A DNA stretch of 64,000 bases from contig NC_089316.1 of NCBI RefSeq assembly GCF_036669915.1, positions 1,888,743-1,952,742 on the forward strand, in the 5' to 3' direction. The stretch is from Pocillopora verrucosa (taxonomy: Eukaryota > Cnidaria > Anthozoa > Scleractinia > Pocilloporidae). Below, piece after piece: positions 3,636 through 63,601 of this stretch; the first letter of the stretch is position 1; each line of letters starts with the position of its first letter. A program made the translations under genes and the position numbers. The notes beneath the pieces are model-generated. The model worked only from the letters and a program-made list of their open reading frames with translations. It was not told where the DNA came from and did not search any database.

Positions 3636-3847
3636 TTAACCCTTTAACTCCCATTATTGACCAAGACAGAATTTCTCCCAACAATATCAATACAATATTA
3701 AGCAGATAAGTGATGAGAATAAAGAAAAGATCACTTTGGAGATAATTAGTTGATCTAATACTGAATTCTCTGAAGTAACATTATAAGAATTGTATGGTTA
3801 ACAGTACTGGAAGAGTTACAAATTTGATCTGGGAGTTAAAGGGTTAA
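3636..3847 (+). repeat. Family A MITE-like repeat, full length
   Basis: Bounded by TTAACCCTTTAACTCCCA on the left and GGGAGTTAAAGGGTTAA on the right, a clear terminal inverted repeat of about 16 bp. The interior matches the other copies (CCAAGACAGAATTTCTCC, GATGAGAATAAAG, GGTTAACAGTA). Confidence 0.8.
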
Positions 3848-3935
3848 ATTGCTATCCAGTGCATAAAACGTACTGCACTATCCAACAGATAGAGATTTAT
3901 CCAGTGGCTAGCATTATCCACTCTTTGAGGAACAA
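3846..3935. repeat. ATCCA-rich short palindromic repeat
   Basis: It contains TATCCAGTGCATAAA, CTATCCAACAGATAGAGATTTATCCAGTGG and GCATTATCCACTC, a self-complementary arrangement. Related sequence occurs at 62560-62640 (CTATCCACCAGGTAGAGATTTACCTGG) and in part near 62215, both in a PABPC intron. No ORF. Confidence 0.5.
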
Positions 3936-5177: not shown

Positions 5178-8100
5178 ATGGAATCATATTCTCTGCTGGA
5201 AAAGCTCAAAGAGACCATAAAAAGAGATTTTCAAGGCAAGGTGTAAATTGTGCATGTTAAAGAATCAACATGCAAATAATACTTTATTTTTCTTGGGTGC
5301 ATAGAGATAGACAAAGACCCTATTCTTTCTCATGGCCCCAAAAATTAAAGTAGCATATTGATCGAAAAGACTCTATTAATCTAAAGCTGTCTGCCTTAAA
5401 GAATTTTACTTGAAAAAATCTAAAACACAACTGCCGCACTTTTCGAGTTTGTAAAGAAATCGAGAAAGAGATATATTAAGTCGAGTTTTTATAGAAATTG
5501 AGAAAGGGATAATATATCTCTTTCTCAACTTCTTTACAAACTCGATCACCTGCTCAAAAAGAGCTGCAGTTGTTTAAAGAATCTAGATGGGGTCTAACCC
5601 TAAGTTCATGGTAACTCTAAATCTCCTTGCCTCAATTAGTTGAACAAAATTGTAAGAGTTTTCTACCATGCCTTGTAGGTCCATCTGTTTGGTTTTAAAA
5701 GATTAGCTTGCACTCAAAATTAAGCTTTAGTAGAGTTTAACCAACAGTAGAGAGCAGAGTAGGAGTTCTTCTGCATTTATCAGGCCCACACTTCTCCTCT
5801 AACACCTGATAGAGGAGAAGTGAAAAGAAAAATTTCCCCTAACCTTGTGCATCTCTTGCCTCTTGCTTGCCTCCTGTTTGCCTGAAAAATGCAAAAAATG
5901 ATGCCCAATCTATGAGTTAGGCTGACCATGTCTCTACATAAGGGACAAGAATGTTAAAGCTCTTGTCTTGACTCTTTGGCAAGGGCTGTACATCACTCTG
6001 ACTTATGCATCCTTCATTATTATAGTATGCACTGAGAAAATTCAATTGTTTCACATTTTTCAGATCTCAGTGACAGATGTACAGAGTCTGATAAAAGGGT
6101 TCAGTGCTTGGAGAAAGAAAACAATCAGATAAAGGAGCAAGTCAAGCATTTTCAAGATGAAAATAATCAGTAGGAATTAAATCTTAAACTTAATTTTTAA
6201 CAAAGTTGTATGACCTCAGTTGTAAAAATGTTTTTGATTCAAAGCAGCAGAATATGAAAGTATGTTATGAAATTAATAGGATTTCTAATTTGCAGAGATT
6301 GAGGTGCACGATTTGCAGAAATTTAAGAATAATATTGGTATGCTGGAGGGAAAATTATTCCACTTTCTGTTTGACTCTCAGGAAGGAAAGGAACCATAAA
6401 TTCTTGAACTTAACTGTTACTGCAATTGTCAAATATTGTATGAACAAAATGTGTAAGTTCATATGTATCTCCCATATGGTTTTCTTAGGATATCCATATT
6501 TTGGTTGCAAAATATGTCAATAATTAGTTAGATAAGAGTATTGTTTAGATGCTGATTGTGTTTTCTTGTTATTACTTTCAAACTATTGCCTCAAGTCTTA
6601 AAGAAACCTTGGCAAAGGTTGAAAAGGAACTGGCATACAAGGATGAAAAGCTAAAGAGGTTAGAGTAGAAAGATGGGTTGAGATGATGGACTTCTTTGTG
6701 TAGACCCTTTAACTCCCAAGATCTCATTAGTAATTCTCCTTACTGTCTGCCATATAGTTCTTGTGATGTTAGTTTGGAGAGTTTGGTATTGAATCAACTA
6801 ATAATCCCCTAATTAATATTTTTCTTCATTCTCATCAGTTGTCTGCATGATATTGTATTGATATTGTAAGGAGGAATTCTGTCTTGGTCACTCATGGGAG
6901 TTAATTCTTCCTCCCCTTTCCCTACATGTATGCTTTTCTTTTTACATCAGTTTTGTGACAATAATATTTCAGGAAATATGATGAACTGCACAGGAAAGAA
7001 CAATGGTGGGACCAATTTCGAGATGAAACTCAGCGGAGGTTTAAAGGTTGGTTTTTACATACATGATGATATCAAAGTCTTAGACTTGGTCCGGAAATTA
7101 AATATTTGGTAAAAACTTTTATTTACCTCTTTTCCTTGATTATGATTTCGCATTTACAGATACTGCAATCTTCAAATAGTTCTTCTCTTTTTCTGTAAAT
7201 CCCTAGAAACAGATTACAATATAATTACCAAATGAGTGAATTAACTAAATATAATGAATTAGGCTGTGGTGTTAGTCTGTTTGTTTTTCTTTGTTAGAGA
7301 AATGGAATGGTTGTTTGCATACAACTTCTGTTTAAATGTTTTTTCCTGTATTTTGCTCTACAGCAATGAAATCATATGGAACATTCCCTCCACACATCCT
7401 TGAAAAATATGTAAATAAGGATATTTTCCAGGAGTTGATGTGAGTTGAAAAATCTGTTTCTTACTTTTGCATTAAAGTAAACCCAGGTTGTAGTCCCTGT
7501 GTCAATTTTTGGAGGACTAAATTCTAGTTGGCTAATATAAAACTCATGAAATAATTTGAGAGTGAGGGGTGCTAACGAAGAAATTGGTAAAGAGGGATAA
7601 GGAAGACTTCAAGTTTGATTAGGTAACATATTTGTCATCTTTTGTTTTAATCCTTTAACTCTCAGATCAAATTTGTAATTCTCCTTTCTGTCAACCCCAC
7701 AATTCTTATATAATGGTAGTTCAGAGAATTTAGTATTGGATCAACTATTTATCCTCAAAAGGATAATTATTTTTTTTATTCTCATCTCGTATCTGGTTGA
7801 TATTGTATGGATATTGTAAGGAGAAATTCTGTCTTGGTCATTCATGGGAGTTTAAGGGTTAATCCTCTACACCCTAACATTAATATCCTTATTAACGATA
7901 CTATTATCTATAAACATTTCCTATGGTACCAATAAAGAGAATATGAGAGCTTCTTTGGCCAGCAATACTATCCTAAATTCTCATAATTTATCCTTAATGC
8001 TTGTTTTGGGGATGATACTGTAAGCAGAAATGAATTTGATGTAAGTTACTCCAAGGGATGTAAGGGCTATGAAACTTTTGTGAATTTGTGTCCTCAGGAA

Positions 8101-11100: not shown

Positions 11101-12988
11101 GGCGATCATTTCCTTTATTCTCATAATCTTAATGAATGGTTGAGCAGTATTACTGTAAGGAGAACTTAGATACCGGTTACTCTTAGGGTTTAGCCCTTTA
11201 ACTCCCATGAGTGACCAAGATAGAATTTCTCCTTACAATATCAATACAATATCAAACAGATAAGTGATGAGAATAGAGAAAAATATCAATTTGGGGATGA
11301 TTAATTGATCCAATACTAAATTCTCTGAACTAACATTACATGAATTGGATGGTTGACAGAAAGGAGAATTTCAAATTTGATCTGGTAGATAAAGGGTTAA
11401 AGGGTCAAGAGATTTAGGCCTCGACGAGATTCGAGCCCATGCCTTCTAGGTACTAGTTCATTTGAGCAGCAAGGCCACATTTTGAAAGTGAGGCAAATTT
11501 TTGAGAATTCTTTGTTCCCATAAAGGAATGCTCCTCTTGAATTTGTCTTTCTTCCGACATATGGCTTTTTAGCTCAGTTAAAAATATTGTATTAAACGCG
11601 TACATCAATATTATTATTGCTAACGCTGGTGAATCATTCCCTCCTAAATTTGACTAGGAATAATGACGCTGAACCAAATTATAAATACGTAGAAGTTGTC
11701 CGGAAGAAAGATGAAAGAGCCAAGCTGAACGGCTATAAATGTCGTGACTGCCAAGAGGTAACATGCTAGATTACTTTGACAGAAAAAAATAGTCCACTGA
11801 GTGAAAAAGTGAACTAAGACATTCCATGCTGGAATTTGGCCCAAAAGGCACTAGGTACAGGAAAACTTAGGCACGAAGAATACAGGAATTTTAAAGGCTT
11901 TTGAAACGAACAAAACATACTAAAGAAGCAAGGCAGATCTTTTCATCGGTTTTTTTTGTGGAAGTAATTTCTTCCTTGTATAGGGGGAATATGCATCATC
12001 AAGAACCTGTAGATTACTAAATAAGTTTAAAGTTAATAGTGTTTTAAATGGTATTTAACATGACAGTGGAGATCTTCCTAGAAAGACCTTATTCCTGTTT
12101 TCTCGTCACCATATTCCTACCAATAACGTAGCTCCACTTTCTGCATATAAACCCACACACAACCCACAATTCCTCCAATCGCTCTGACGAAGGGCTAACC
12201 CTCAAAATGTCAGCTTTTTTACCCTTTACGGTGGCCAATTTACGTTTTCAACTCAATTGTTAACACTAAATTACCTGCTATACTCTCCCACCGACGCAGC
12301 ACCACAGCTTCTTTAGAAACCTACCACCTTTAGACCTAATCGCTGACGAGAGGTCATAAAAGAATGTCTGTTTTGGTTTAAGCCTTACAAAAGTTGGAAC
12401 ATGTGACCTGTTTTTCTCTCATTTTTGTTTAGTTTGAGAGCAACAGATAAAAATCAATTCAGCCGTTGGCGAAATTTATTCCCTTGTTTTTGTCCTTTTT
12501 TTAGGATTTGTATTGTATTGGCTAATATGCTGTTCTTCACGATGGGCGACTTTTTTCAGTCTGTGCGTCAAAGTTTCGGTGTTTCGTGACGAGTCAGTTA
12601 GAGTTGAGAAATGTCAAGCCGATTGTTGACAGTGGTCTCTCGAGTTCTCTTTTACATATCTAGATAATTTCATCTGTTTTGCAAATGTGATAAATTAGGT
12701 TTTGCTATTGTGATTGCCAATCGAAATGCGCTCCAAGACAGATATCCCTTTTCTTTTCAGTACTACCAGGGCCTTGATCTTCCCGAAGATGAGCTGAAAA
12801 AACGTTTGAAGCACTGTTCTCGTCACCGAGCGAAGTTTTCACCACCCCCGTCCACTCCGCCAGGCTTTTGGAATTTAAGCTTTCCGGATACCCAAGAGTA
12901 TATGGCTAAGGGCTATTTGAAGACCGAGTCGGAAGCACCGGCTCCGAAGAGACTTCGGAAAACACGACGGAATAGGATCGCAAAGTGA
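5178..12988 (+). CDS. RBBP8: CtIP / RBBP8 DNA-end resection factor
   Basis: CtIP (Sae2/Ctp1 family) works with MRE11-RAD50-NBS1 to start 5' resection of DNA breaks. Eleven exons join in phase to 689 aa: 5178-5235, 6064-6169, 6596-6658, 6973-7046, 7364-7439, 8098-9112, 9374-9575, 9901-9977, 10059-10129, 11658-11757, 12761-12988. Residues 1 to about 100 are charged and coiled-coil-like. The large sixth exon is acidic and low-complexity, with a DDGDGNDDDDD run. The family signature is at the end: VEVVRKKDERAKL, then a CRDC pair (about 609-612), YYQGLDLPEDELKK, CSRHR (about 633-637), and PPSTPPGFW with Thr646 at the position of the human CDK site T847, ending in a basic tail. It is shorter than human CtIP (897 aa). 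The first intron appears to use a GC donor. An upstream N-terminal exon could be missing. Confidence 0.88.
5444..5546. repeat. Inverted repeat (hairpin) in CtIP intron 1
   Basis: TCGAGTTTGTAAAGAAATCG...AGAGATATATTA (5444-5480) is answered by AATATATCTCTTTCTC...TTCTTTACAAACTCGA (about 5511-5546), with a second partial copy of the arm in between. Arms of about 36 bp are close to perfect. No ORF; MITE-like. Confidence 0.65.
6705..6904 (-). repeat. Family A repeat, reverse orientation, in a CtIP intron
   Basis: It starts CCCTTTAACTCCCAAGATC and ends CACTCATGGGAGTTAA. The interior is the reverse complement of the forward copies (GTAAGGAGGAATTCTGTCTTGGTCA). It sits 68 bp before the exon at 6973. 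Confidence 0.75.
7647..7862 (-). repeat. Family A repeat, reverse orientation
   Basis: Bounded by TTAATCCTTTAACTCTCAGATC and GGGAGTTTAAGGGTTAA; contains GATATTGTAAGGAGAAATTCTGTCTTGG. It directly abuts a family B copy. Confidence 0.7.
7861..8060 (+). repeat. Family B repeat, diverged, just before the large CtIP exon
   Basis: It begins AATCCTCTACACCCTAACATTAATAT and carries the family B interior (ATTCTCATAATTTATCC..., GGGGATGATACTGTAAGCAG). It is truncated or decayed at its right end, 38 bp before the acceptor of the exon at 8098. Confidence 0.5.
10495..10800. repeat. MITE-like element with TAATAATGTACATGAAA termini
   Basis: TTTTTAATAATGTACATGAAAGA near 10614 is answered by CTTTTTCATGTACATTATTACAG near 10768-10792. 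Inside are repeated GAGTGCAATTTG, TTTGCACTCGTGTTACA and CAGCCAATCAGAAGCGCC. The outer left part carries a second inverted pair (GAGTGCAATTTGGTGTAA and TTACACCAAATTGCTCGAG). It lies in the long CtIP intron 10130-11657. Confidence 0.55.
10828..10919. repeat. Near-perfect inverted repeat, arms of about 36 bp
   Basis: The left arm GCCTACGTGTAGCCGCACCC... runs to CCAAAGGTGAAA and the right arm runs from TTTACCTTTGGGGG to GGGTGCGGCTACACGTAGGC, with a loop of about 14 bp. A transcript through this intron would fold into a strong hairpin. No coding potential; MITE-like. Confidence 0.7.
11001..11190 (+). repeat. Family B repeat in a CtIP intron
   Basis: Starts TTAACCCTTTATATAG and carries TATTCTCCATACCCCTCTCTATA, GACAAGGAGAATTGATATGAAGATCAA, GATCATTTCCTTTATTCTCAT and TACTGTAAGGAGAACTTAGAT, ending in CACTCTTAGGG-type sequence. 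It abuts the family A copy at 11191. Related copies are at 14824, 35915 and 54451. Confidence 0.65.
11191..11400 (+). repeat. Family A repeat, full length
   Basis: TAGCCCTTTAACTCCCATGAGTG to GATAAAGGGTTAA, with the usual interior (CAATATCAATACAATATC, GTGATGAGAATAGAG, GTTGACAGAAAGGAG). Confidence 0.75.
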
Positions 12989-13865
12989 AGTGTCTTTTCG
13001 AAGATTAACGATGAATTGCGAAGTTGACATGAAGATGTCACGATCGCTGATTTCTCGGGTTATCCGTGTGGTAACGAAGAAAACTGATTGGTGGAAGATG
13101 ATACGAGGCATAATACAAATATAGAACTGTATTGTGAACAAGCCTCATGCATTTATACTAGAATGTACTGCTTGTCAATTTTTTTCTTAAGTGTGTACAT
13201 GTCGAGAAATATTACGAGGAGCCAATGGCAACTCACTACAAGAAAACATGCCTGCAGCGCGGAAAAATGCGATTGAGCAAGTCGCCATTGGTTTAAGTTT
13301 TGAATCCAATTGCTTTTTAAAGTGGCGCGAGTTTCCTAGATAAATCTCCTATTCAGAGCAATCTTGGATAACTTTCAACACTTTTCTTTAGAGCGTATTT
13401 CGATCGAGCGTCATAAAACCAAAGTCAGCGTAATCACAACGACCTATCTGACGAAAAAAATGTCGCTGGGGGCAAATGGGAACCCAAATATCAGAAAATT
13501 GTCCCCTTAGTTCAACAAAGTCTGCCATGAGAAACGATAACGACTGTTTATGAAAATCCTTCCGTAAATCTAGTTGTAATTTATTGATCCACGAGTGTAT
13601 TTTCAGAAATTCCAACATGCGTTCTTAAAGTATCCTGATTTGAACTAAATTATTTTGAATCAAATACTTCCCAATCACCTTTCTCGTTCCACTCCCTGTC
13701 TTGCAAGAGACGACGGAGAAAATTCCTTGGGGACCTGAATCCAAATAGATTTGCATTTTCAGCGCCATTTTTGAAGCGAACAGGATCAACACGAATAGCT
13801 CACTTGCCCTTGCAGTTCATTCCTGCATTTAGCAGAAGGGCGATTTAAAGAATTGTCCTTCCTTG
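11936..13865 (+). repeat. Segmental duplication, parent copy (CtIP intron 10 end, last exon, downstream)
   Basis: Sequence from TTTTCATCGG (about 11936) through the last CtIP exon to AATTGTCCTTCC (about 13865) is repeated at about 19200-22305. Shared landmarks include ATAGGGGGAATATG, the whole 228-bp last exon, GTACTGCTTGTCAATTTTTTTCTTAAG, TATTACGAGGAGCCAAT, AAAGTGGCGCGAGTTTCC and GATTTGCATTTTCAGCGCC. This copy holds the reading frame of the last exon intact and has its own insertion at about 12092-12330. Confidence 0.85.
12092..12330 (+). mobile_element. Penelope-like-element terminal fragment inserted in the CtIP intron
   Basis: The segment is absent from the duplicated copy, which reads straight through AGACCTAATCGCTGACG near 19351. 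Short AGACCTTA/AGACCTAA sequences flank it here, like a target duplication. It carries CGCTCTGACGAAGGGCTAA, CAGCTTTTTTACCCTTTACGG and GTTAACACTAAATTACCTGC, the same sequence as one arm of the palindromic element at 21674-21918. The ribozyme-like core is decayed here (CTCAAAATGTC instead of CTCGAAACGTC). Confidence 0.6.
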
Positions 13866-15792
13866 CCCATATGACAGTGATTGCGTGATTGCGTTTGTCC
13901 TTGAGAACCATATTGAATACGCGACAAATACGAGCAAGAAATATTTTTACACATTCAAAATAAATCGATTAACATTTACCTATGGCGAAAGAAAAAAGGA
14001 ATGGCCTAACGTTTATGGAATGTGCGGCTAACATCCGCCAATTTCCGCTGCTTTAACCGAAAATGAAATTCATTGAAAATGAAGCTACCACAATGCAATG
14101 CAATCGGAGTGCGCACATCTTTTTTAAGAGCGATTTTGCCGCAATTCAGCATTGAGTTCCTGCTTTCTTGGAAAGGCCTTTGAATAGTTCAAGGCATTGT
14201 TTGTACATGCTAGTGTTTTCCAGTGTTGGATAGCGGCTTTGTACATGTCTAAGGTGAGTGAATGAGGCGAAGATCGACTTTGCAGTCTTGGGAACGTGCA
14301 GACCGACTGCACTTCAACAGGAAGTCTCCTTAGTCTTTTCGCTTATGATTGCATTTCTCGTTTTGGTCACGAAACATCTTGCTTGGGAATTCGAAAGTTC
14401 AGAGAGCTCATCTCTCGTAATCTTTCAAAGAACGTCTAATCAAACATTTCAAAGTTCTGGATAAGGGCTTTGATCAACTTTTATAGGTATTTGTTTTCGA
14501 TCACAGCTGTACCTAGTCATTAACATAAATAAACATCTACGTACTAGTCGCCGGTTCGATGCGGTTGTAGTATTTTGGAATGTTTCTCAAGCTTTTCGCG
14601 GTATTCATGACCAGGAGATAGTTTACTTTGCGAAAGGAAGCAAGATTGCTGGGAACATATTCCAACGTAATCAACGAGAAAAGTTCATTTGCAGCCATTT
14701 ATAGTAACATAAACAACGGAACTATTTTCTTGTCCATACATGTATCATGTATGAGCATCGTGTCTTGGCGCAACATAGAGCCATGGTGTTGTAATTAATT
14801 ATGAGCAATCATAGCATGATTGTTTAACCTCTTACACCCTAACGTCAGTCTGCATATTCTCCATTCTGTTCTTCATACATTTCTTGAGGTCGTGACGAGG
14901 AGAATTTGTCGAACAATCAAGAGTTTCTTTAGTTGGCGATCATTTCCTCCATTCTCATGAACTTACTGTTTTATTTGGGGGTGATACTGTAAGGAGAATC
15001 TAGATGCTAGTCACTCTTAGAGGTTACAACATGATTCTGCCTTTCTTCTTTTAATACCATGAAAGGTTTTAGGAATAAACTTTTTGATTCAAACAACAGG
15101 TGCTGGAAGAGCAATTTTATAGATAAAATTTAGAAGCTCTCGTACAATGTGAAGAGGGGCATATCATTCCTATGAGTTTTAAAGGATATTTATGAAAGTA
15201 TCAATGGACTTAACATATGACTCGCTGCTTTGGAAGTTATTTTCCATTGTCCTTCTACTTTCAAACTATGGTCAGTCCAATAAGGAGTCTTAAAGCAATA
15301 TAAGGGGATTTTGGTCTTTTTGTGTAGGAGGAGAGAGTAATATCTTGGATATGAAACTATATCAACAGAAACAGAAGTTTTCTGGTATGATTTGAGTTTT
15401 TGATGAGTTATGTGCTTTTGGTTCATTTTTGAGTTGTCTGATTGTCAAGCTGTTAATAAGTGTTTCAAGAAGAAAGGGTGTATTATGGTGCAAAATTCTT
15501 TCATGCAAGGCTGACTGAAATATTTCTAAACAGGAAACTCTTTCTTCTTTGTAATGTTTAATTTACAGTCTTTCGTTTTATTCCTAAGACATAGACTAGT
15601 ATAGTTATTTTGAGATGTCTTGATATTGGTGTTGTGTTGGTAAAAATAATTTTGTAGCCTCCTTTTGTGTGATGTATGATGTTTGTAACAAGTTTGTGTC
15701 TTATTGTTTATTATTTCATTGCAGGATACTCATGGTATTAAGCATCAATAAATTTCCGTAAAACTGCTGTGTGTGCATTAGTGGTATCAATT
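12989..15792. other. CtIP 3' flank and Roquin 5' region
   Basis: Up to about 13865 this is the downstream half of the duplicated block. After it, AATAAA near 13959 may serve CtIP; the AATATA near 13108 is AATAAA in the duplicate. A donor-like TCTAAG|GTGAGTG at about 14251 could end a non-coding first exon of Roquin, whose next acceptor (TTTCATTGCAG) is at about 15724. A family B repeat lies at 14824-15026. No other gene was recognised. Confidence 0.5.
14824..15026 (+). repeat. Family B repeat
   Basis: TTAACCTCTTACACCCTAACGTCAG to CTAGTCACTCTTAGAGGTTA, with AAGGAGAATCTAGATG, GACGAGGAGAATTTGTC and GGCGATCATTTCCTCCATTCTCATG. Terminal sequence is weakly inverted. Confidence 0.7.
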
Positions 15793-18700
15793 ATGCCGAT
15801 TCAAAAACCTCAAGGGACAGAATTTCTTCAGTGTCCAATATGTTACAAGGAATTTGACAATCATGATCGGCAGCCAATCAGCTTGGGATGTGGACACACA
15901 TTTTGTGTTTCCTGCTTGTCAAAACTGTCTAAAACACAGTGCCCTACTGATCAGGCTTCTGTAGAGACAGATATATCCAAACTTCCATACAACTATGCTT
16001 TGCTTCAATTAGTTGGAGAAGAAATGCCAGACAATAGGCTTCCCCCAATTGACAGTCTTAGAGAATATGCCACTTATTATTTAAATTCAAAAAGCTGTAT
16101 TGAAAAGCTTGCCCTGTTCTTGAAACCTGTCAGTGGCTCTGGTAATGGTACAGTGAATGGAAAAGTCAATGGCAGCACCCGTAATGGTTCTGTCAACAGC
16201 AATGGGAATAACGTCCTTACGAGACCCATGCAGAGGAAGCTTGTGACATTAGTTAACTGTCAATTGGCTGAGGGTGAAGGAAGATCTAGAGCCATGCGTG
16301 CAGCCAGAAGTTTGGGAGAAAGGACAGTTACAGAGCTCATTTTATTGCATCAACAAGTCTCAGCTAATATATGGGCTGCTGTACGGAATCGTGGTTGTCA
16401 GTTTTTAGGACCAGCTATTCAGGAAGAAGCTTTGAAACTGATTTTGTTGGCTCTTGAGGGTGGTGAGGCTTTGTCTAGAAAGGTTTTGGTTCTTTTTGTG
16501 GTCCAGAAGCTGGAATCTGTGTTTCCACAGGCTTCCAAAACAAGTATTGGCCATGTAGTGCAGTTGCTTTACAGAGCATCCTGTTTTAAGGTGAGTTTAT
16601 GCTTTATGCTCCATTAAGGTGGATTTCAGTGGATGTCTGTTAAATTGTCACTAAAAAGTGCACTGAGATTTTTGTTATGTAGGAAATTGAGTATGCTTGT
16701 AATATATATTAAATGTAATTAAGAGGTCTCTGTGTATTTAAAAGTGTTGAACTGCAAATATTGACTCAATTTTTTCATTCAGGTCGAGGAAAAGAACAAT
16801 GAGCCATCTCTAATGCAGCTCAAAGAACAGGTACTGTTTCTTTGAAAAATTTAATAAGTGTTTTCAGATGTAACTACCATTAAATTCACATGTTAGTTAT
16901 TTCTTTCCATTGAATAAACAGTGGTTAATAATTGTGTTGGTTGTGCTTTTTAGACTTAAAAACATTATATCATTCTTTTTTTTTTTTCTTTTTTTTTTTT
17001 GCTATCAGTACCGTACTTATGATGCACTGCGGAAAGTACATGATGCACAGATAGTGCAAATTGCAACAGAGGCAGGGCTGCGCATTCTCCCAGACAAGTG
17101 GTCCTCACTGCTCTACGGTGACATGGATCACAAGTCTCACATGCAATCTATCATTGACAAGGTGTGTTGTTAGTTATGGCTTCAGCTTTAATGAAGTAAA
17201 ACTGTACATTTAATACAATGGATCTAAGCTAGTTTGAAATTTTTGATATCACTATTCAAGATTTAAAGCAGCAGGGCTATTATTGTATTTTTATCATGGG
17301 AAGACCTGTGAATTTTTTAATGGAGTGTTATGGTTTGCATCACAAGTTTATCCCAAAAAATGGTAGCATTACAGTTAAAACTAATTTCTTTTATTTTGTT
17401 TTCAGCTCCAAACCCCTGCCTCATTCTCCCAGAGCATCCAAGAGCTGATCATTGCCCTACAGAGATCTGGTGATCCTGGGAATCTCTGTCAAATGAGAGA
17501 TCAGTTTGAATTACTGTCCCACATTGATGCATCTCCAGGTTTGTGTGGCAGTCTTTTTTGCAAGAATGGCAATTTGTTGCATACAGAAGCACATGAATTT
17601 TCATTGACTGGAGCTTGAATAAGTTCTTGACATAAGTGGCCTGGTTTGGCCGAGTTATTCACTACAGCTTTGGGATCATATACATGTAGACACCCCAGTT
17701 GCACAGTCAATTACAAATACATGTACTTCAAGGCCAGAAACAATTGCATTACCAGTTGAGATAACATGTGTCTTTGATTTTTTTTCCTGCAGAGGCATCA
17801 TGTCCAGCTTGGGATGAGCTAGAACAAGCCATGGTTTCTGTACATTCTGTGGTCCACAGATTTGTTGACTTTTCAAAAGTGAGCAATGGTGTTTTTGTCT
17901 TTTAAAATAAAATCCACTCATTTCTTGATTTGAGTCTCTTTTGATTACATGGAAACTACATGAGAGCTCTTTTGGCAGATGCAGGATGATCATTGTGATT
18001 AATGTTGCTTTTGGTTCTGTTCTTTCATATTCAAAAGGCTAATTTGAAACATCTGCAGGCCCTTTTTACAAAAGAACAGATTAAAAAAAAAAAACTAGAT
18101 GCATGCATAAGCATCAAGAGCAGCTGTTGAACATTTAAGGGTCTCCTTTGTTTAACAGACAAGTCTTGCATTTCCAAAAATATATCATAACCATTGGTAA
18201 CAGTTTAGTAATTTTAAAAGTACTGAGTAGTCTAAAGGATGGATTATGTTTTTCCTTTATTTTGATGATATCAGTCACATGGCAGAGGAATGAAAGGATC
18301 TGGTGATCCACCACAAGTAAGTACAATTTGAAGTTTTTGTTGTTGTTGTTGTTGTTGTTGTTGTAAATTTCTTTAATTTCCAGTGATCTTGATTTAGTCT
18401 AGCTAACTGTAGTCTTATTTGTGCGTCAGTTCAGGCAGGTGTACTGGTAAACTTGGTCTAGATTGTCCTTAAGAGTCAAGTAGTAAGCCTATTATTTACA
18501 TTGGTTCTTTTTGGGACAGTAGCAATTTTTTTCCTTTTCTTTTTTAGTCACACAACAACAAGTTCAAAACCAGTATGTGCAGGGATCACACTTGGGGGGG
18601 ATGTCCAAGAGGTCCCCGCTGTACATTTGCACACTCAAAGGAGGAGCTAGAGAAGTGGGTGTTGATCTGATTCTTTGCTTTAAAGTTTGCAAATTAATGT

Positions 18701-19173
18701 TTTTCATGCTAAGCTATTCTCAGGTCCAAATACTAATGTGTGTTTTTTTTGTTGCATTATCCTAAAGTCTAATTTCCAAATCCTACAATAAATATTTGGA
18801 CATGAATCACAAATGACCTCTTACTGACTAGCATTATCAGCCATGTCCCAAATTCAAGTTTCCTTCTATGATCATGGGCTGTTTATTATGTCTTGGAAAA
18901 ATGATAATAAATACTGATCTAAACATGATTTTTTTCAACGACCAGGGTTTGAGCAGTAATCCTTGTTCTTCATTAACGCGCGTCACTTTTAATCGCAGGT
19001 TTGGTAAAAGAAGAGCTCAGAGGCCTCGGCCCTCACCCATTGGTAGAGGACCAGCACCATCTGTGGCACCAGATCAGTTTTCACCCCTTGAAAATGGTTG
19101 TGATGGCAGTCCAACAGCTACCCAGGCTCCTACAAATTGTGTCAACGGCTCTGCAAGATCATCTCCTCTTTAA
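15793..19173 (+). CDS. RC3H1: Roquin-type RING/ROQ/CCCH protein (RC3H family), short C-terminus
   Basis: Roquins bind stem-loops (constitutive decay elements) in mRNA 3' UTRs and recruit decay and deadenylation factors; the RING suggests ubiquitin-ligase activity. Coding exons: 15793-16590, 16783-16830, 17009-17161, 17406-17538, 17793-17878, 18275-18316, 18548-18654, 18999-19173, giving 513 aa. The start [17 protein letters not shown] aligns with the family's own start. The RING (C14, C17, C33, H35, C38, C41, C50, with D53) is followed by the ROQ region ([53 protein letters not shown] split over exons) and a CCCH finger (C431-x7-C439-x5-C445-x3-H449). Vertebrate Roquins exceed 1,100 aa; the long proline-rich C-terminus is missing, and the stop lies about 27 bp before the duplicated block. 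The paralogue number (RC3H1 or 2) cannot be assigned. Confidence 0.88.
18334..18363. repeat. (GTT)n microsatellite
   Basis: About nine GTT units lie just after the donor of the short Roquin exon 18275-18316. Confidence 0.9.
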
Positions 19174-19784
19174 ATTTCTCCTGGTAAGGAGAGATAAAAA
19201 CTTTTGTTCATCGGTTTTTTTGGTGTGGAAGTAATTGCTTCTGCGTATAGGGGGAATATGTATCTTCAAGAAACTGTAGATTACTAAATAAATTTGAAGT
19301 TAACAGTGTTTCAAATGATATTTGTTTTGACGGTAAAGATCTTCCTAAGGAGACCTAATCGCTGACGAGATGTCCTGAGAGAATGGCTGTTTTGGCTTAA
19401 GCCATAAAAAAGTTGAAACATGTTACCTGTTATTCTTTCATTTTTGTTTAGTTTGAAAGTAATAGATAAGAATCAATTCAATCATTGGCAAAAGATCCTT
19501 TTATTCCCTTTTGTTTTTTTAGGGTTTGTATTGTATTGGCTAACGTGACGTTCTTTACGATGGGCGACTTTTTTTCTGTCTGTACGTCAAAGTTTCGGTG
19601 TTTCGCAACGAGTCATTCAGAGTTGAGAAATGTTAAATCGATTGTTGACAGTGGTCTCTCGAGTTCTCTTTTAAATATTCAGATAATGTCGTCTGTTCTG
19701 ACTTGCAAATGTGATAAATTAGGTTTTGCTACTGTGATTACTAATCGAAATGTGCTCCATGACAGATATCCCTTTTCTTTTCAG

Positions 19785-20012
19785 TACTACCAGGGCCTTG
19801 ATCTTCCCGAGGATGAGCTGAAAAAACGTTTGAAGCATTGTTCTCGTCACCGAGCGAAGTTTTCACCACCACCGTCCACTCCTCCAGGTTTTTAGAACTC
19901 AAGCTTTCCGGATACCCAAGAGCATATGGATAAGGGCTATTTAAAGACCGAGTCGGAAGCACCGGCTCCGAAGAGACTTCGGAAAACACGACGGAATAGG
20001 ATCGCAAAGTGA
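19785..20012 (+). pseudogene. Copy of the CtIP last exon, broken by one nonsense codon
   Basis: It is the same length as the parent exon (228 bp), keeps the TTTTCAG acceptor, and encodes YYQGLDLPEDELKKRLKHC, CSRHRAKF and PPSTPPGF before a TAG at 19893-19895 where the parent has TGG (Trp). The frame after the stop is still open, with a few substitutions, to the parent's TGA. There is no frameshift. No CtIP exon lies upstream in this copy, so it is best called a pseudo-exon; it could still be spliced as a terminal exon of a Roquin read-through transcript. Confidence 0.8.
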
Positions 20013-20217
20013 GGAGTCTTTTCGAAGATTAACAATGAATTGCGAAGTTGACTTGAAGATATTTCGCTGATTGCTCGAATTATCCATGTGGTAACGAAGA
20101 AAACTTATTAGAGGAAGATGATATGAGGCATAATGCAAATAAAGAATTGTAATTTATACAAGCCACGTTGAAACCAGAATGTATTGCTTGTCAATTTTTT
20201 TCTTAAGTGTGTACATG

Positions 20218-21376
20218 GAATATTCAAGGGTCGGCAAGAGGAAAGAAAGAAAAAAGTTATCAGTAGCGAAATTTGCTGGTATTGATGGTGTCAATTACTT
20301 GGTGGGAGATAGGGGGATACCCCCCCCCCCCTCCCACTTTAAGTATTCCCTTGAAATGATACACGCAAAGAATTTTTTTTTCGCTCAGTATCTGTATTCA
20401 CCTTTGTTTACCTTTTCCGTCTTTTTAAAGTTTCAAGAAACAAAGATGAATGCTTGGTCATGAAGCGAAATAAGCTGCTCTTTGTGTGTTAGATATGATT
20501 CCATCTCTTTTCGTGGTTGACTTTTCTTTCAATGTGAAGAAGCGCGAATCCTGCGTTTGGTATCGCGAATGAAAGCGACAACTTCTTCCAAGTCGTTCAT
20601 TTCCTCTGTTCGGAGTGGTTTAATCCTCACTCTACGACTACAATAAAAAAGGCGTATCGAAAATGTAATATTGAATGTAATATTAAAAAGGGATCAGACG
20701 ATAATAAAAGAATTATGAAATGGGAAAGTTATAAAGCCAGCATAACCATCCTTTATAAAGTTACAGTAGTTCTGTTTGAATGCGGTAATACTGGTGCTAG
20801 ATCGTATATTAAGGGTTAGAGAGTTCCAAAGTATTGCGGCTGTAACAAGGAAAGTTTTTCCACCTTTTGTGTCACGGTTATACTTAGGACAGCATATAGC
20901 TATATCAGCATAGCGTGAAGTTCTGGTAGACGTGTCGCTGATACGCACTGATCTACTACCTAAACACTCTGGGCATTGTCCATTTAAGCATTTGTAGAAT
21001 AAGCGTAATTTATTTACCTTGATCTCGTCCTAAGAGGGTAGCCAGTCTACTCTCTTGAATAGGGTCACAGTAGGTTGGTCTCTCGTTTTATTAAGGCTTA
21101 AAATAAAAGAAGCTGCTCTGTTCTGAAGACGAAAAATTCGTCTAATGTTACATTTTGGTGTTGAACCCCAGACTGCTCCGCCGTATAAGAATGCAGTTAT
21201 AGTTAATTATTGGTTGTGTTGTAAAAAAGTATACACTCGTCTAGAGGAAGATGTCTGATCGATCAGTTTCTTACATAGATGTTCAACATGTTCATTCAAG
21301 CTGAGGTCTAGATTAACATAGACCCCAAGTAACTTGTGACTTGTGGTCTTTCCCTTTACTGGTCAGAACAAGGGAA
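20218..21376 (-). mobile_element. Non-LTR retrotransposon fragment (reverse-transcriptase C-terminal end), decayed
   Basis: On the minus strand, conceptual translation from about 21355 down to 20694 gives KLLGVYVNLDLSLNEHVEHL, then FLYGGAVWGSTPK, IFRLQNRAASFIL, KVNKLRLFYKCLNGQCPECL and KGGKTFLVTAAILWNSL. This is the order typical of the C-terminal tail of LINE reverse transcriptases. At least two in-frame stops interrupt it, leaving a longest open piece at 20694-20948. The element is absent from the parent duplicate, which reads from GTACATG into AAATATTACGAGGAG. Part of the insertion (20218-20690), with a poly-C run at 20321-20333, is unexplained. Confidence 0.75.
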
Positions 21377-21673
21377 AGTATTACGAGGAGCCAATAGGAA
21401 CTCACTACAAGAAAAAATGCCTGCAGCGAGGGAAAATACGATTTAGCAAGTGACTATTGGTTTAAGTTTTGAATCTAATTGTTTTTAAAGTGGCGCGAGT
21501 TTCCTAAAACAATCACTTATTCAGAGCAATCCCTGATTACTTTCGACATCAAATTGGAAAATTTTCTCTAGAATGTATTTCGATCGAGCGTCATTAAACC
21601 AAGGTCAACGTAATCACAACGACCAATCTGAAGAGAAAATATAACTAGGCAAATGGAACCCCTATATAAAAGG

Positions 21674-21866
21674 TAATTTAGTGTTAACAACTGGGTTGAA
21701 AACGTAAATTAGCCACCGTAAAGGGTAAAAAAGCTGACGTTTCGAGCGTTAGCCCTTCGTCAGAGCGATGACGAAGGGCTAACGCTCGAAACGTCAGCTT
21801 TTTTACCCTTTACGGTGGCTAATTTACGTTTTCAACCCAGTTGTTAACACTAAATTACCTGCTATA

Positions 21867-21911
<45 letters not shown>

Positions 21912-21918
21912 TTTATCC
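21674..21918. mobile_element. Palindromic insertion with hammerhead-ribozyme-like cores (Penelope-like terminal repeats)
   Basis: The element is flanked by a perfect 12-bp target duplication, CTATATAAAAGG (21662-21673 and 21919-21930). Two head-to-head arms meet at about 21768: TTAACAACTGGGTTGAAAACG...AAAAAGCTGACGTTTCGAGC on the left, and the reverse complement on the right, which extends further (GCTATACTCTCCCACCGACG). The minus-strand arm (21731-21767) reads CTGACGA, a four-pair stem GGGC/GCTC with loop TAAC, then GAAACGTC, the order of the hammerhead core. Such cores are known from Penelope-like elements. No ORF is present. Confidence 0.6.
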
Positions 21919-22317
21919 CTATATAAAAGGATTGTCGCCTTCAACAAAATCTGCTATGAGGGCTGGAAATAATAACGATTGTTTATGAAAACCCTTTCGT
22001 AGATTTAGATGTAATTTACTGATCCATAAGTGTAATTTTCAGAAATTACAACATGCGCTCTAAAAGCAATGATTTGAACTAAATTCTTCTTTACCGATCT
22101 TTATGAACCCAGTCACCTTTCTCGTTCCACTCCTTATCTTGCAGAGACGACGAAGAAAATTCTGGGGGTCTGGATCCAAATAGATTTGCATTTTCAGCGC
22201 CATTTTTGAAGCGAACAGGATCAACATGAATAGTTCATTTGCCCTTGCAGTTTATTCCTGTATTTAGCGGAAGGGTGTGATAAAGACAAGTTAATTGTCC
22301 TTCCTAGCCACTGCTAG

Positions 22318-25218
22318 ATGGAAACTGATCCAAATTACGAGTTTGAAGCTCCAAAATGGTTCGACTTTACGGAAGATTTCGAAGATGAATTCAATGACTC
22401 GGGGTACGTTCAGTATTTTGCGAAAAGTTTGATTTGATGTTCTTAAAAATGGCATCGACTGATTGAATTGGTTACGATGTTGTTTGTAGATTTACTATAT
22501 TAATTTTTTCCTTTGTATAACTTTTGTGTAATGCACAGAAAAAATATATTTAAAACATGAAATGTTTCGCTTTGCAGTCAGTAATGTATCGCCGTACGTT
22601 AATTTATATTGAAGCTTAATATTTTGTAACTTTTAACGTCACTTCTTAATTGAATTTTTCTCAATACAGGAAGTTAGAGTAGGAGAACTTAAGCTTATAA
22701 GCTCCTCTTTTTGTTGCATCAATCGCGTTTTTGTTCTGATTTCTTAATGAAAGTTGAGCATTGCCATTATAATCACTTTCCTTTAACTCTCATTGCGGCA
22801 AAATGCATTATGTACAGAAATCTGCATGAAAACTAAGTGTCAGATATATGATGTTTTCAATAAAAAAATGAGATTTTAATGTCGTAGTTCCTTGGCTTAA
22901 ACACTTTCCAATGTGATGCAAACATTAGCAACATGTACATGTGTTTTGATTGGTCCTTAGTTATGATCTACTGGAGGACAGATGCATAGATGACGTCACT
23001 ATTAACCCTTTAACTCCCAAGATCTCATCAGTAATTCTCCTTGCTGTCTGCCATATACTTCTTGTGATGTTAGTTTGGAGAATTTGATATTGGATCAACT
23101 AATAATCCCTTTAAGTAATTAATGTTTTTCTTTATTCTCATCACTTGTCTGCTTGATATTGTATTAATATTGTAAAGAGAAATTCTGTCTTGGTCACTTG
23201 TGTCGCCAAGTGTCTGTTCAGGTACAGATAACAGAAGATGATAAAATGTGGCGAGAACATCAGTGAAACATTCTGGTGCAGTTTGTATGCCACTGTTTTT
23301 GTTCTTACCACATTATGATGTCATCTCTGATCCATTACTGAACAGACACAAGGAAGCAACTTTTGAGTCTATTTGTGAAGCTGATTTTGTAACTGAATTT
23401 CTTCACAGTCTGAACAGTTCATGGTTTGAGAAAGTCCATCCACTTCATGAACCAAAGGACCCATCGCATCATGATGCAACTACCAAGCCACTGCTTGCTG
23501 CTGCCCAAGTCGACAAGCCTGCCACAAGCTCAAAACCACAGCCCAATAAACTGAAGAAAAATTACAACAGCAAAAAGTCTCTTGGTATAAAGTCAATTCG
23601 AACACAACGTGGAGAACATGAGGGCATGAATAATAGAGAGAACAGTGGAAAAGTGCAAAGAGATGTGAAGTCATCAACAGCTAAAAAAGATGAGAAGAAG
23701 ACCACACAAAGAAGTAGTTCTGAGGAGGGGAACTTAACTCCTGAAAGATTAAGACATCACAAACAGTGCAGTTTTACACCACCATGGATAAACTCCCCTC
23801 ATAACAGACCAGGTAAAGATACCTCTCACTAACTGAGTTCAAGGTCCGTACTGTACATGTAAGTTACTGACCAGGTTTTATCTGTTTGGATTTTTGGCAC
23901 GTGTGAGAATGTAAGGGCCATTAATCTGAGCGGGAACAAGCAAGGTTCTGTAACTAACAGCATGGACTGAGAAAATGAGTTTATATTCGTAATATAGTTA
24001 TTATATTTCCAGGTTCAAATAGAAGCAAAAAGATTTTAATTTAATGAAACTTTTGAATTGTATAGAGAACAGTCTGTGGAATATGTATACCAATGTCAGA
24101 ATGTAACTGGTTAAAATTGCTTTTTTTACTTTACAGAAAATGCATCACATGCTAATAAGAAAGATGATAGAAGCAGTAGCCTGAACAACATGGCTGTCTT
24201 TTCTCCCCAACGTGTGCCTACTAATCAGTCTCCAATGTCTCCTGCGCCAGTGCAAAGTGTTAAAAGGTCTTACACAGAATATGCTTCTTCACCAAAGACA
24301 TCTCTGCTATCAAAGGCTGTCAGTGGATATCAGAAAGGAAATCAACCTGGAAGGAAAAGAAGACTGTTGCCTGCCATTCCCAGTATAAACAAGAATAGTC
24401 CAGGTAGTATTTGTACAAGTCCTGCATCACCTACTCAGCCGCATTATCAAATTGAAGGCAAAGAGGGCAAAATGAATGATCAAATGTTCTGCAAAGAGGC
24501 TGCTTGTAGTGTTTCTAACATGCCTCTTCGAGCAGTAGATTTGTCACAAGCCGCAAGTCAAGATCACTCTCTAGGACACCTTCAGAGTAACAATACTATT
24601 AAAAGAGAATTTCAGGACAAAAATATGTTTAGCCAAAGACCTTTAGAAGCAATACATGAAAACACTGCAAGCAAAGAAAAACCAAGCCAGCCCCTTGCAC
24701 AAACAGATGGTGAAAAGAATGCATCCTCAAAGCATAAAATGGTAACACAATCTCATGATGTTAGTCTGGAAGCACTGTTAAAACAACACAACAAGAAAAT
24801 TGCAGCTGCAAGGAATAAGTATGATGAAAATGGCCGCAAAATCAGAACTGCAGAGCCAAACTTTTGTCCTGCACCAGGCCACAAGTCCATATCTTCATCA
24901 TCCACAGTATTGTCGCCATCTGCTGCTTGCAAGAGGCCCACAACAGCTGTGGAACCTGTGGTTGGTGTGAAGCAGAAGCGCCGCTCTTGTGTTGCTGCTG
25001 TGAGCAGCACACAAAGTGAAAAAGCTACATTTAAGACAAACTCATCATCATCAAACATAAATAGGAAGGGCAAGGAGGATGTTTGTAAACAAACAGTAAA
25101 GCAGAAACGTCGTTCATGTGTTGCTACATTTGGAAATAGTGGAAATGCAAAGTTAGACAAAGAACTGCGAGATTTAATTGCCCAACATAATTCAAAAGTT
25201 AAGGCTAAGAGGTCTTAG
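22318..25218 (+). CDS. TPX2: TPX2-like spindle assembly factor
   Basis: TPX2 binds and activates Aurora A kinase and promotes microtubule nucleation at spindles. Three exons (22318-22403, 23346-23812, 24137-25218) join in phase to 544 aa. The N-terminus NYEFEAPKWFDF resembles the Aurora-binding YSYDAPSDFINF of vertebrate TPX2. After a spacer, LNSSWFEKVH resembles its second Aurora contact (DSWFEEK). The rest is basic and low-complexity, with a KLLKQHNKKIAAARNKY-like helix (SLEALLKQHNKKIAAARNKY) and the motif VKQKRRSCVA twice (about residues 430 and 483 by count). The C-terminal helix DKELRDLIAQHNSKVKAKRS ends the protein. The repeated C-terminal TPX2 domains of vertebrates are not seen. AATAAA at about 25675 may be the poly(A) signal. 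Identity rests on the N-terminal motifs and is probable, not certain. Confidence 0.6.
23003..23205 (-). repeat. Family A repeat in TPX2 intron 1
   Basis: TTAACCCTTTAACTCCCAAGATC to AATTCTGTCTTGGTCACTTGTG. The right terminus is truncated (no GGGAGTTAA). Confidence 0.7.
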
Positions 25219-26176: not shown

Positions 26177-29100
26177 ATGTCGTTACTGAATAAGAAAAAG
26201 AAGTCTTTTATCGGAGTACCTGCTCCTCTTGGCTACGTACCCGGTCTTGGAAGAGGGTTCGTATTTGAATATATTTTCTGAATTCGTGTACTAAAGGAAT
26301 CGAAAGATGTCACGCATTTCATGCCAGTGAAGTAATTTTGTAACCGCTCTAAGCAACAATGTGCTTGAATTTCGTAGTGCTACTGGCTTTACGACCCGGT
26401 CAGATATCGGTCCTGCTAGGGATGCTACGGATATAAGGTGAGAATCTTGCCAAACTTATTCAGGTGCTTATAATATGAACATGATAATATGATCAACATG
26501 ATGATTGCATGAACGACAATAAAAAGTTGTATATGATAAATTTGGGTATTCTCATTACTTGTTTGCTGGATAATGTAAGGATATTATAGGGAGAAATTAC
26601 GTTTTAATCACTTCTGGGAGTTAAAGGGACAGCTGAAATATTATCAACCTGGATGGGGGAGTTCTTCCTCAACCCTGCGTGTCATGTGTTTGCCTCTCAT
26701 TATATGTTGTAGATTAATACTCTCATTTGAATCAACAGTGATGAGAGGCATGGAAAACCAGGCTTTGCAAATGAAAAGAAGCCTCAAGAGGAAGATGAAG
26801 AGGAAGATTTAAATGACACAAATTATGACGAGGTACATCAACAAGGATATGCATAATTTTGTAATGTTAGCTAGGTTTAGTGCACTAGGGGTCACTATGT
26901 GGTGTTGTTTGGAAAGAACAGGTGGAAATAATAACTAGACAAGTTGTGGGTCTGGACCCAGTTGTTTGAAAGCCAGTAAGCGCTAACCCAAGGTTAAAAT
27001 TGAATCTAGGTTTCTTTATTCCTTTATTCAAAAGCCTTTTTGGGATAATTTTCTGTGTTCTTTTAAGAGCATCAAAGAGCCATATTCTAGACAAAAAGAA
27101 ATTCAACTGAATTTTCTTTTAAAGCTTTTAGATCTGAAATCCCAGCTTTGAACAACCTGGCCTTGGCTAACTTTTTATCTGATCGTAAAACCTCATCAGC
27201 CTTTGTAATGAATCTAAAAAATCTGATATAAAGTAAAATGTTGTCCCAAAAATGTTGATTGTGATAACTGTGAAAAAAGTTTGCAGGATACGGTGGAAGC
27301 TTGTTCTCAAGCTGTCCTTATGAGAAAGATGATGAAGAGGCAGATGCCATTTATGATTCCATTGATAGAAGAATGGATGATAGAAGAAAAGAGAGAAGGT
27401 ATGATGTTCTAAAAGGAGAATAATCACTTTGTACAGCTTTATATTGTGTGGGTGTTCTTACTGGATCCTCTTAATGTGGGTGGTTAAGTGTGAATTTTTT
27501 TGGCGTCATTTTCATTTTAGAGAGAAACGTTTTAAGGAAGAGATTGAGCAATATCGTCAGGAAAGGCCCAAGATTCAGCAGCAGTTTTCTGATCTCAAGG
27601 TATTAGTTTTTGGTGTCGTTTTTTGAGTATGATGGCCTGGTACATATAGGTAATAGAATTGCTAAGGGTATTCAAAGCAACCAGTCAAAAATTGGATAAA
27701 TGCTTGCATCTTTGTTTTCAGCGGAAACTGGGTGAGGTATCCGAAGATGACTGGTTGAGTATTCCAGAAGTTGGCGACTACAGAAACAAGAAGCAAAGAA
27801 ATCCAAGGACAGAAAAGTGAGTTGACAATTACATAATTCACCATAGAAAACTCTGTATAACTTTTTGTTAATGATTACAGTGCCTTTTCATTCTATTTAC
27901 AAGGGTTTTTTTTGTTGACAATTCTCTTGTAGATTTACTCCAGTTCCTGACAGTGTCCTGCACAGCGCACTGATAAGTGGCGAGAAAATAACAACTCTTG
28001 ACTCCCGGCAACAGGTAGTGGAGAGTGTAAAGCCAAATCAAATTGTTTTTGCTGCAGCAGCATATTTATTTTATGTTATTGGAGTAAAAACTTTTATGTG
28101 CAAATAGATGCCAGCTTTCCATGAGTGTATTCAACTGATGGATCTGATTCCATGATTTTTGCTTTTAAAAGATTATTTGGTACAAATGGAATAAGTGTTG
28201 CTTCACAATTCTCTTTCTTGTCACAACAAATCATCATCCTGAGTGCACCATAATTTCTCCTTTTTTTTTTTCAAGAAATTTGGTGGTTTCCAGACTCCTT
28301 TCCCTGGAGGGATCACACCTGGAGGAATGACAACAGGTTTTTCAACACCATCAGCAGATCTTGACTTGATCAAAATTGGAGAAGCTAGAAAATCACTTGT
28401 TGGTGTTAAGCTAGATCAGGTCTGTAACTGTATGTGAGGTATTTGTATGCCTCTTTGATTAGATATTAACTGCTTAACTCCCAAGATTTGATTGTTAATT
28501 CTCCCCTCTAGCTGGTACACATTTCCTCATAAATTAGTTACGACAATTTGGGGTTAGATCAAGATGACAACTTCTACCTGATAAGTTTGAGTATTCTCAT
28601 TACCTGTTTTCTAGATAATGTATGGATATTATTGGGAGAAGTTGCTTGTTGATCACTTCTGGGAGTTAAAGGGTTAATACATTGAAAAACTCATATGTGG
28701 CATTTGTTGAGGGGATCCATGCACTTAAGTTTGTGTCTTCATTGGGCAAAGTGTGAGCTCAACATGTTGGGCCTGAGAAACAGTCAAGTTGCAGTGTATT
28801 TACTTTGCAGGCATCTGATTCAGTGAGTGGGCAAACAGTAGTGGATCCCAAAGGTTACCTAACTGATCTTCAGAGTTTAACTCCTTCCTCTGGTGGAGAT
28901 ATTGGGTGAGTAATAGTCATGTTTTTGTTTGGTCATCTGATGCTGTTCAGCATGCAAAAGAGTGAGGGCAGTATTAAGCATACAGATTCCATGAATATTT
29001 CTTTGATTTGGGGTTGCTGTGCTTTTACAGTGACATCAAGAAAGCGAGACTTTTGCTGAAGTCTGTGATCACCACCAACCCACAACATGGACCAGGTTTG

Positions 29101-52700: not shown

Positions 52701-53037
52701 AAGTGTTTCGAGTTGTTCTTGAAGCTTGCGCATGTAAAGACTAACTTTCATGCATGCGCTTTTGAGCCTAACCAAACCCAACAGGAAATTTTTAACTCAA
52801 ACGGGAGACCTGAGAAATACTGACGGCGCGCGCAAAAAGTTGACTGCGCGCGCTTCTTTGTGAAGCAACGTCATAATGCAGTTCCTATGGTGATTTTGAA
52901 AACTGCTATGGTTGTCTGATATCAGAGAGAGCTTTACGCACAAAAACGATATCTTGCTTGTTATAGTCTCAAATTTCTCAGATAACTCAGTTTGCGTCAG
53001 AAGAAGTTTCAAGTGTATTATTAGACAATCGTAAACA
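49734..53037. other. Intergenic region between the K2P channel and the HSF-like gene
   Basis: Holds the divergent upstream regions of the two genes. A degenerate family A-like repeat is at 51375-51575 (ATTCTCCTTAGCATC, GGATCAATTAAAG, TTTCTTTATTCTCATCACTTG, GCAAGGAGAAATTA). GACGGCGCGCGCAAAAAGTTGACTGCGCGCG at 52821-52851 is a GC-rich direct/inverted motif about 190 bp before the HSF-like start. No further gene recognised. Confidence 0.5.

Positions 53038-59774: not shown

Positions 59775-63601
<3,827 letters not shown>

Follow-up and report, generated by a model that had tools for sequence, protein, structure and literature searches.

A truncated Roquin copy between two copies of a CtIP 3'-end block in the coral Pocillopora verrucosa

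Complex rearrangements that combine duplication with insertion can arise by template switching, as in microhomology-mediated break-induced replication and fork stalling and template switching (MMBIR/FoSTeS). Partial DNA-mediated gene duplications can generate chimeric transcription units, and the joining of one intron to another is a route of exon shuffling. Here we describe a locus of the coral Pocillopora verrucosa that is a clear new case of these known kinds of rearrangement and gene birth: a Roquin (RC3H) gene devoid of its 3' part lies between two copies of a block containing the last exon of CtIP. It is found in a stretch of 64,000 nucleotides (RefSeq assembly GCF_036669915.1, contig NC_089316.1, positions 1,888,743 to 1,952,742 of the forward strand), hereafter the window, whose own numbering is used throughout. 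We consider it quite probable that this truncated Roquin paralog was placed between the two block copies in a single event.

As in MMBIR/FoSTeS, a distant segment lies between two local copies. The 3' junction would be compatible with an overlap of 3-4 bases. The locus differs from these systems in being old (about 14% between copies) and not a fresh mutation, and its mechanism is inferred from structure only. As in intron-intron exon shuffling, an intron-containing Roquin copy cut in an intron is joined to an intron and the last exon of CtIP; unlike domain shuffling, the phases do not match, so only untranslated sequence would be borrowed here. Within the literature searched, nothing joins RBBP8, RC3H1, TPX2 and coral, what was listed on a truncated Roquin in coral was judged unrelated, and nothing came up on the mechanism; Nematostella Roquin appears in one paper as a reference-list mention. 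The birth of this gene is unusually readable, with a donor locus, an acceptor locus, flanking duplicates and a kept frame, and with parts of approximately the same age by divergence.

The two block copies and their CtIP exons are located as follows.

11930-13867, plus strand: block A, comprising the 3' part of the last CtIP intron, the last exon, its 3' flank and a promoter-like end (BLAST start 11942)
12761-12988, plus strand: last coding exon of CtIP, copy A, intact (228 bp, SAE2/CtIP C-terminus)
19188-22309, plus strand: block B, second block copy, occupying the gap between the truncated Roquin and the downstream gene
19785-20012, plus strand: last exon of CtIP, copy B, complete (228 bp), Trp37 changed to a stop; predicted 3' untranslated region (UTR) exon of the Roquin copy

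In a self-comparison of the window the two blocks (about 11930-13867 and 19188-22309) are collinear and on the same strand, with four BLAST pairs (11942-12092/19207-19359, 12332-13201/19351-20217, 13207-13491/21376-21667 and 13511-13867/21940-22309; E 8e-40 to 0). The penultimate and last exons of CtIP match Pfam PF08573 (E 5.6e-13). Counted piecewise in base-by-base alignments, identity between A and B is 85-87% in five non-coding pieces (Kimura two-parameter distances, K2P, of 0.170, 0.155, 0.146, 0.169 and 0.168); for the last exon of CtIP it rises to 95% (K2P 0.050). The length common to both is about 1.7 kb; copy B reaches 3.1 kb because of two inserts of about 1.16 and 0.27 kb. The original prediction, made from the sequence, had announced a repeat of the CtIP 3' end in the same orientation with its complete last exon, which the alignment bears out; the size that it gave, about 1.9 kb, is too large for the common block. 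It also let block B fill the space between Roquin and the downstream gene. This holds, with edges revised: homology starts at 19207 by BLAST, 33 bp past the Roquin stop (19171-19173), or possibly near 19188 from the reading of the junction, and it ends at 22309, 8 bp upstream of the ATG at 22318. The start of block A moves to about 11930 when an AAGG overlap at the junction is counted. That block B constitutes both the 3' flank of Roquin and the upstream DNA of the next gene is likewise true of the sequence.

We searched the genome (353,415,432 bases in 52 contigs) with positions 12340-13867, the best 40 of 159 candidates being scored. Four of the 41 matches listed fall on the two block copies, one covering A in full and three covering parts of B, and the other 37 are all within positions 865-1044 of the query (window 13204-13383). 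As far as this search reaches, the block thus appears to be present as two copies in the genome, among the matches listed.

Between the blocks lies the Roquin unit.

14125-19188, plus strand: Roquin unit, homologous to Roquin on contig C4 including introns, from the likely 5' UTR exon 1 to position +5 of intron 8
14125-14253, plus strand: 3' part of a likely 5' UTR exon of Roquin, with donor AAG/GTGAGT at 14254, kept in C4, and acceptor before 15725
15793-19173, plus strand: coding region of the truncated Roquin, predicted as 8 exons that encode 513 residues (RING, ROQ and CCCH domains)

The donor at 14254 is the sole one above 4 bits in 13000-15700, scored, as all donors here, with an approximate donor matrix. 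Pfam matches that pass their cut-offs on the protein model are zf-RING_5 (residues 13-54), ROQ (192-278), ROQ_II (281-336) and zf-CCCH (426-451); the RING, ROQ and zinc-finger domains thus follow one another in the order required for Roquin / RC3H. Model residues 1-464 match residues 1-453 of human Roquin-1 in the PDB entry 4txa (E 8.6e-185). The window protein resembles Roquin / RC3H in having RING, ROQ, ROQ_II and CCCH, and ends about 60 residues past the zinc finger. The C-terminal extension is absent, the stop being at 19171 and C4 homology ending at 19188. A strong donor located 10 bases past the stop (19184) suggested that Roquin is truncated here. Annotation of this locus as Roquin should not be taken to mean a full-length gene. 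One codon within the CCCH finger (18593-18595, residue 436) encodes Trp in the window copy and Arg in both the C4 copy and human Roquin-1; this zinc finger is possibly changed.

The parent-like copies were found on contig C4. The window Roquin protein has 23 matches in the genome: six are the window gene, 16 are on C4 and one is a weak zinc-finger match on contig C7. On C4 they form the loci C4a (near 17-21 kb), C4b (near 11.63 Mb) and C4c (an N-terminal piece near 11.646 Mb); five pieces were compared with the window (L039, L040, L043, which is C4a, L044, and L045, which is C4c). DNA homology is 83-87% and continues through introns. Introns common to the window copy and C4 rule out retroposition of Roquin. 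Where the window has its TAA stop, C4a has TAC; it reads ...SARSSPLYISPG, has the same exon-8 donor and then an in-frame further exon (DVPQSTNCYVPQ...). This in-frame continuation past the window stop indicates that the window Roquin is a truncated derivative.

Both edges of the C4 homology lie next to the blocks. The 3' edge, read in C4a, is at 19188, position +5 of intron 8, and coincides with the start of block B; this junction is compatible with an AAG(G) overlap. The 5' edge, a reading that covers C4b and C4c and not C4a, is at 14125, 129 bases upstream of the donor 14254. Between it and block A there is one repeat of about 233 bp plus about 25 bases, and this repeat masks the 5' junction. 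No block match lies near C4 Roquin among the matches listed in the search with 12340-13867. In 210 kb of flanking DNA (21 stretches, some of it N) tblastn gave no match to Roquin or CtIP, and a Roquin source near the locus was rejected.

The divergences of block and Roquin were then compared. Roquin non-coding K2P between the window and C4 is 0.135-0.149 in pieces of L039, L040, L043 and L044. When pooled, differences amount to 203 of 1419 non-coding sites for the block and about 199 of 1474 for Roquin (L043, 0.135), with p=0.57. This is compatible with, and no proof of, block and Roquin duplications of equal age in one event.

The coding sequence of the window copy differs from C4 by 51 synonymous and 48 nonsynonymous changes (pN/pS, the ratio of nonsynonymous to synonymous differences per site, 0.28), and no stop occurs within 513 codons. 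For the first 102 codons the comparison was with C4b, and errors in that copy may raise the nonsynonymous count. Under free drift the window branch alone should have gathered about 87 nonsynonymous changes (half of K 0.147 x 1190 sites; an arithmetic estimate, not a simulation). The frame of the Roquin copy has apparently been preserved.

The end of the block and the start of the following gene contain these features.

13762-13775, plus strand: GCGC-N4-TTTGAA, copy A, within a 53-bp stretch identical to B (13739-13791)
22197-22210, plus strand: GCGC-N4-TTTGAA, copy B, 121 bp upstream of the downstream ATG
22318-22403, plus strand: likely coding exon 1 of the downstream gene, which by eye looks TPX2-like (an unconfirmed identity), its end taken from a donor-like site at 22404

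The motif resembles the paired cell cycle-dependent element (CDE) and cell cycle genes homology region (CHR). A CHR preceded at four bases by a CDE is a known arrangement in promoters of the G2/M phases according to PMC4705690, which also places TPX2 among 210 candidate targets. As in these promoters, GCGC, four bases and TTTGAA are found near a gene start (at 13762 and 22197); compared with them, what we have here is a sequence match. With both strands of the 64 kb scanned, GCGC-N4-TTTGAA occurs twice, once per block. The probability of a 53-bp identical run is about 0.04 in a simulation at 15% divergence, the run having been chosen after it was seen. The block end looks like the downstream gene's own promoter, which points to an ancestral order CtIP-block-downstream gene. 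Neither Pfam nor PDB bore out the name TPX2 given to this gene by the original prediction: Pfam gave no TPX2 match at E up to 10 and PDB none that was relevant. The score of its alignment with residues 1-43 of human TPX2 was equalled by 122 of 2000 shuffles.

We propose the following history. The ancestral order would have been CtIP, a block of about 1.7 kb and the downstream gene. About 5.06 kb of Roquin, starting in the first untranslated exon and ending at position +5 of intron 8, would then have been copied from the longer Roquin now on C4 and inserted between two block copies in one duplication-insertion-duplication event, by template switching or break repair. The outcome would be a 3'-truncated Roquin paralog, with RING, ROQ and CCCH zinc finger and without C-terminal extension, having block DNA on both sides. 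The placement of Roquin between two block copies, one of two explanations offered by the original prediction, now has good support: the Roquin unit here is a dispersed copy of the longer C4 gene, and its ends meet block B and, with one repeat between, lie beside block A. The truncation itself, the stop in exon B and the positions of the inserts had been missed.

Two further features bear on how such a copy could be expressed.

19184-19784, plus strand: predicted chimeric intron, with donor CTG/GTAAGG from Roquin intron 8 and the remainder, including the acceptor, from the last CtIP intron (block B)
20138-20143, plus strand: AATAAA past exon B in block B, resembling a poly(A) signal; another is at 19287

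The donor at 19184 is the sole site above 4 bits in 19000-22400 and in C4a it is, by frame, the true intron-8 donor. At the two AATAAA positions of B, block A reads AATATA (counterpart of 20138) and AATAAG. Since the Roquin unit seems to have brought at most part of a first untranslated exon, its promoter would come from the side of block A. The promoter-like end of block A, itself a duplicate, may thus drive the Roquin copy, whose exon-8 donor would be joined to the acceptor of CtIP in block B, and the CtIP exon copy with a poly(A) signal would form its 3' UTR, the end of block B driving the downstream gene. The RNA to be expected would have a junction 19183/19785 and a start site just after block A. 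In this predicted transcript the stop is 10 bases upstream of the last junction; a stop that near the last junction should spare a transcript from nonsense-mediated decay. A Roquin-CtIP fusion protein is ruled out: Roquin intron 8 is in phase 1 and the last CtIP intron in phase 0, as read from the sequence, and a stop follows either way.

Human and fly Roquin recruit CCR4-NOT via their C-terminal region, and N-terminal fragments are inactive in tethering, according to an excerpt of PMC5303829. The window protein differs from them by the lack of this CCR4-NOT-recruiting extension, whereas the C4 paralog continues. In part of the text of PMC11172303, invertebrates are described as having one Roquin gene, with a C-terminal part that is variable and disordered. 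By analogy the window protein would bind RNA without its CCR4-NOT effector; the locus offers a natural test of the N-terminal half of Roquin without effector tail. More tentatively, and we regard this as possible rather than likely, the new gene would have been complete in one step: a Roquin fragment deprived of its promoter and 3' end would have gained a CDE/CHR promoter, an acceptor, a last exon and a poly(A) signal. Its RING-ROQ-CCCH product would bind the RNA targets of Roquin with no recruitment of CCR4-NOT, as a dampener of full-length Roquin timed to cell division.

Several observations weigh against the single-event history or its consequences. The ancestral gene order is deduced from this genome; searches for relatives with Roquin exon 1 (viral and genome contigs), and with the CtIP exon, the downstream-gene exon and a 29-base repeat pattern (viral contigs), gave none. 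TTTGAA or its inverse, taken alone, occurs 142 times in the window, and the unconfirmed identity of TPX2 weakens the reading as a G2/M promoter. The short pieces of L045 are less diverged (K2P 0.115 over 170 sites and 0.111 over 87 sites). At least two Roquin copies, 98-99% identical to each other, are present on C4, and these may be recent tandem copies or partly assembly duplicates; exon 1 of C4b contains four single-base indels. About 12 bases at the 3' junction are readable as microhomology or as filler. Four of the seven donors of the Roquin model score below 4 bits, making the scarcity of other strong donors weak evidence. Transcript, splicing, promoter use and function of the Roquin copy are proposed from the sequence. 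In exon B, finally, amino-acid changes are scarcer than expected of an unconstrained pseudo-exon, yet this exon is unreadable in frame by Roquin.

This last point opens the possibility that exon B serves, or once served, CtIP as an alternative last exon, through a splice joining 11757 to 19785 across an intron that contains Roquin. The block copy would then have its own coding role, an idea compatible with the single-event history and which we hold to be doubtful. Of the 11 differences between exons A and B, seven are synonymous and four nonsynonymous, the latter being the stop at codon 37 and three amino-acid changes, and all five changes upstream of the stop are synonymous. The probability of four or fewer nonsynonymous changes in an unconstrained exon B is 0.0008 at K=0.16, 0.016 at K=0.12 and 0.052 at K=0.10. 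Such an exon is now interrupted, however, at the Trp that follows PPGF (PPGFW), the numbers are small, and constraint could be mimicked by divergence that varies locally or by partial gene conversion. The synonymous divergence between the exons (0.136) is like that of the flanks, which speaks against gene conversion, partial conversion being possible. A past alternative CtIP exon, uneven divergence and partial conversion are thus all possible explanations of the low number of amino-acid changes.

Other histories lead to the same arrangement. Roquin could always have stood between CtIP and the downstream gene, a full-length copy having gone to C4 and the block having been copied forward later over the 3' half of Roquin. 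The homology boundary at 19188 would then be the edge of the replacement, and human Roquin-1 matches the window copy at eight of the 38 amino acids that differ between window and C4; it matches C4 at 11 and neither at 19, a mixed polarity that in turn weighs against the preferred history. Such a history, the second explanation of the original prediction, nevertheless leaves unexplained why C4 homology also stops at the 5' end, beside block A (14125); it needs two events of equal divergence (p=0.57) and puts the promoter-like site 121 bp upstream of the downstream ATG by luck. We consider it unlikely. If instead the block was first duplicated in tandem and a Roquin fragment inserted later, the final order would be identical, and the block K2P (0.146-0.170) is indeed slightly above that of Roquin non-coding DNA (0.111-0.149); but the insertion must hit the exact junction of the copies and the pooled divergences are not significantly different, so that this order of events seems improbable. 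There is, finally, the repeat itself, and the near-identical C4 Roquin copies may be assembly duplicates, as would fit an assembly artefact with a collapsed or repeated haplotype. Non-coding divergence of 13-15% and inserts specific to A and to B rule out that the blocks are alleles or an assembly echo, allelic differences being far below this range, and speak against the second copy being an assembly error; an artefact is hardly credible. The single-event placement of Roquin between the blocks therefore remains the reading that we prefer.

The inserts and repeats within and beside the blocks are the following.

12089-12332, plus strand: 244-bp insert specific to block A, one copy of a repeat that is high-copy in the genome, adjoining a duplicated AGACCT
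13204-13383, plus strand: old interspersed repeat, with 37 other genome places among the matches listed, 70-81% identity
20218-21375, minus strand: insert in block B only, about 1.16 kb, with a minus-strand open reading frame (ORF) remnant
about 21665-21938, no strand assigned: fold-back insert in block B, about 0.27 kb, of the same repeat family as the block A insert, flanked by a CCTATATAAAAGG duplication
13885-14117, no strand assigned: high-copy repeat of about 233 bp between block A and the Roquin unit (query 16-248), in many places, 81-84%

The repeat at 12089-12332 (query 90-333) has at least 42 matches genome-wide, the query itself included, a lower bound with the best 40 of 3006 candidates scored. 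It and 21665-21938 belong to one high-copy family, inserted independently in each block copy, with a fold-back in B. Most matches to the repeat at 13204-13383 are about 140 bp long and reach 13349; its presence in both block copies indicates that it predates the duplication. For 13885-14117 the best 40 of 3879 candidates were scored. The ORF remnant of the 20218-21375 insert looks like the end of a non-LTR (long terminal repeat) reverse-transcriptase protein; Pfam gave no match for it. By eye we take the core of the family shared by the A and B inserts to be like a minimal hammerhead motif. Rfam over 11900-22400 gave 0 matches at E up to 1, and over 21640-21960 seven matches at E up to 10, none reaching its gathering score. 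With no hammerhead match from Rfam, the reading of the fold-back insert as a hammerhead or retrozyme (compare the part of PMC7229834 that concerns these) was rejected. Another interspersed family, of about 200 bp and with copies about 78-92% alike in both orientations, was seen at 464-680, 3636-3848, 6695-6904, 7644-7865, 11187-11401, 23002-23198 and 57372-57573, a partial list of its copies.

The ratio of observed to expected CpG is 0-0.46 in the Roquin body (windows 15001-19100) and mostly 0.5-1.5 in 12401-14900 and 19401-22700; 11801-12100 (0.34) is an exception among the CpG-rich blocks. The 3' change in CpG falls near the boundary of block B. A CpG-poor gene body is expected under long germ-line methylation.

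Elsewhere in the window, Pfam identifies a PRP1_N gene at 27405-27626, which we take to be PRPF6-like. A potassium-channel-like ORF with Ion_trans_2 is found on the minus strand at 48234-48923, and an ORF with an HSF-type DNA-binding domain at 53035-53865. An RRM_1 match at 60082-60414 belongs to a gene that is presumably poly(A)-binding-protein-like.

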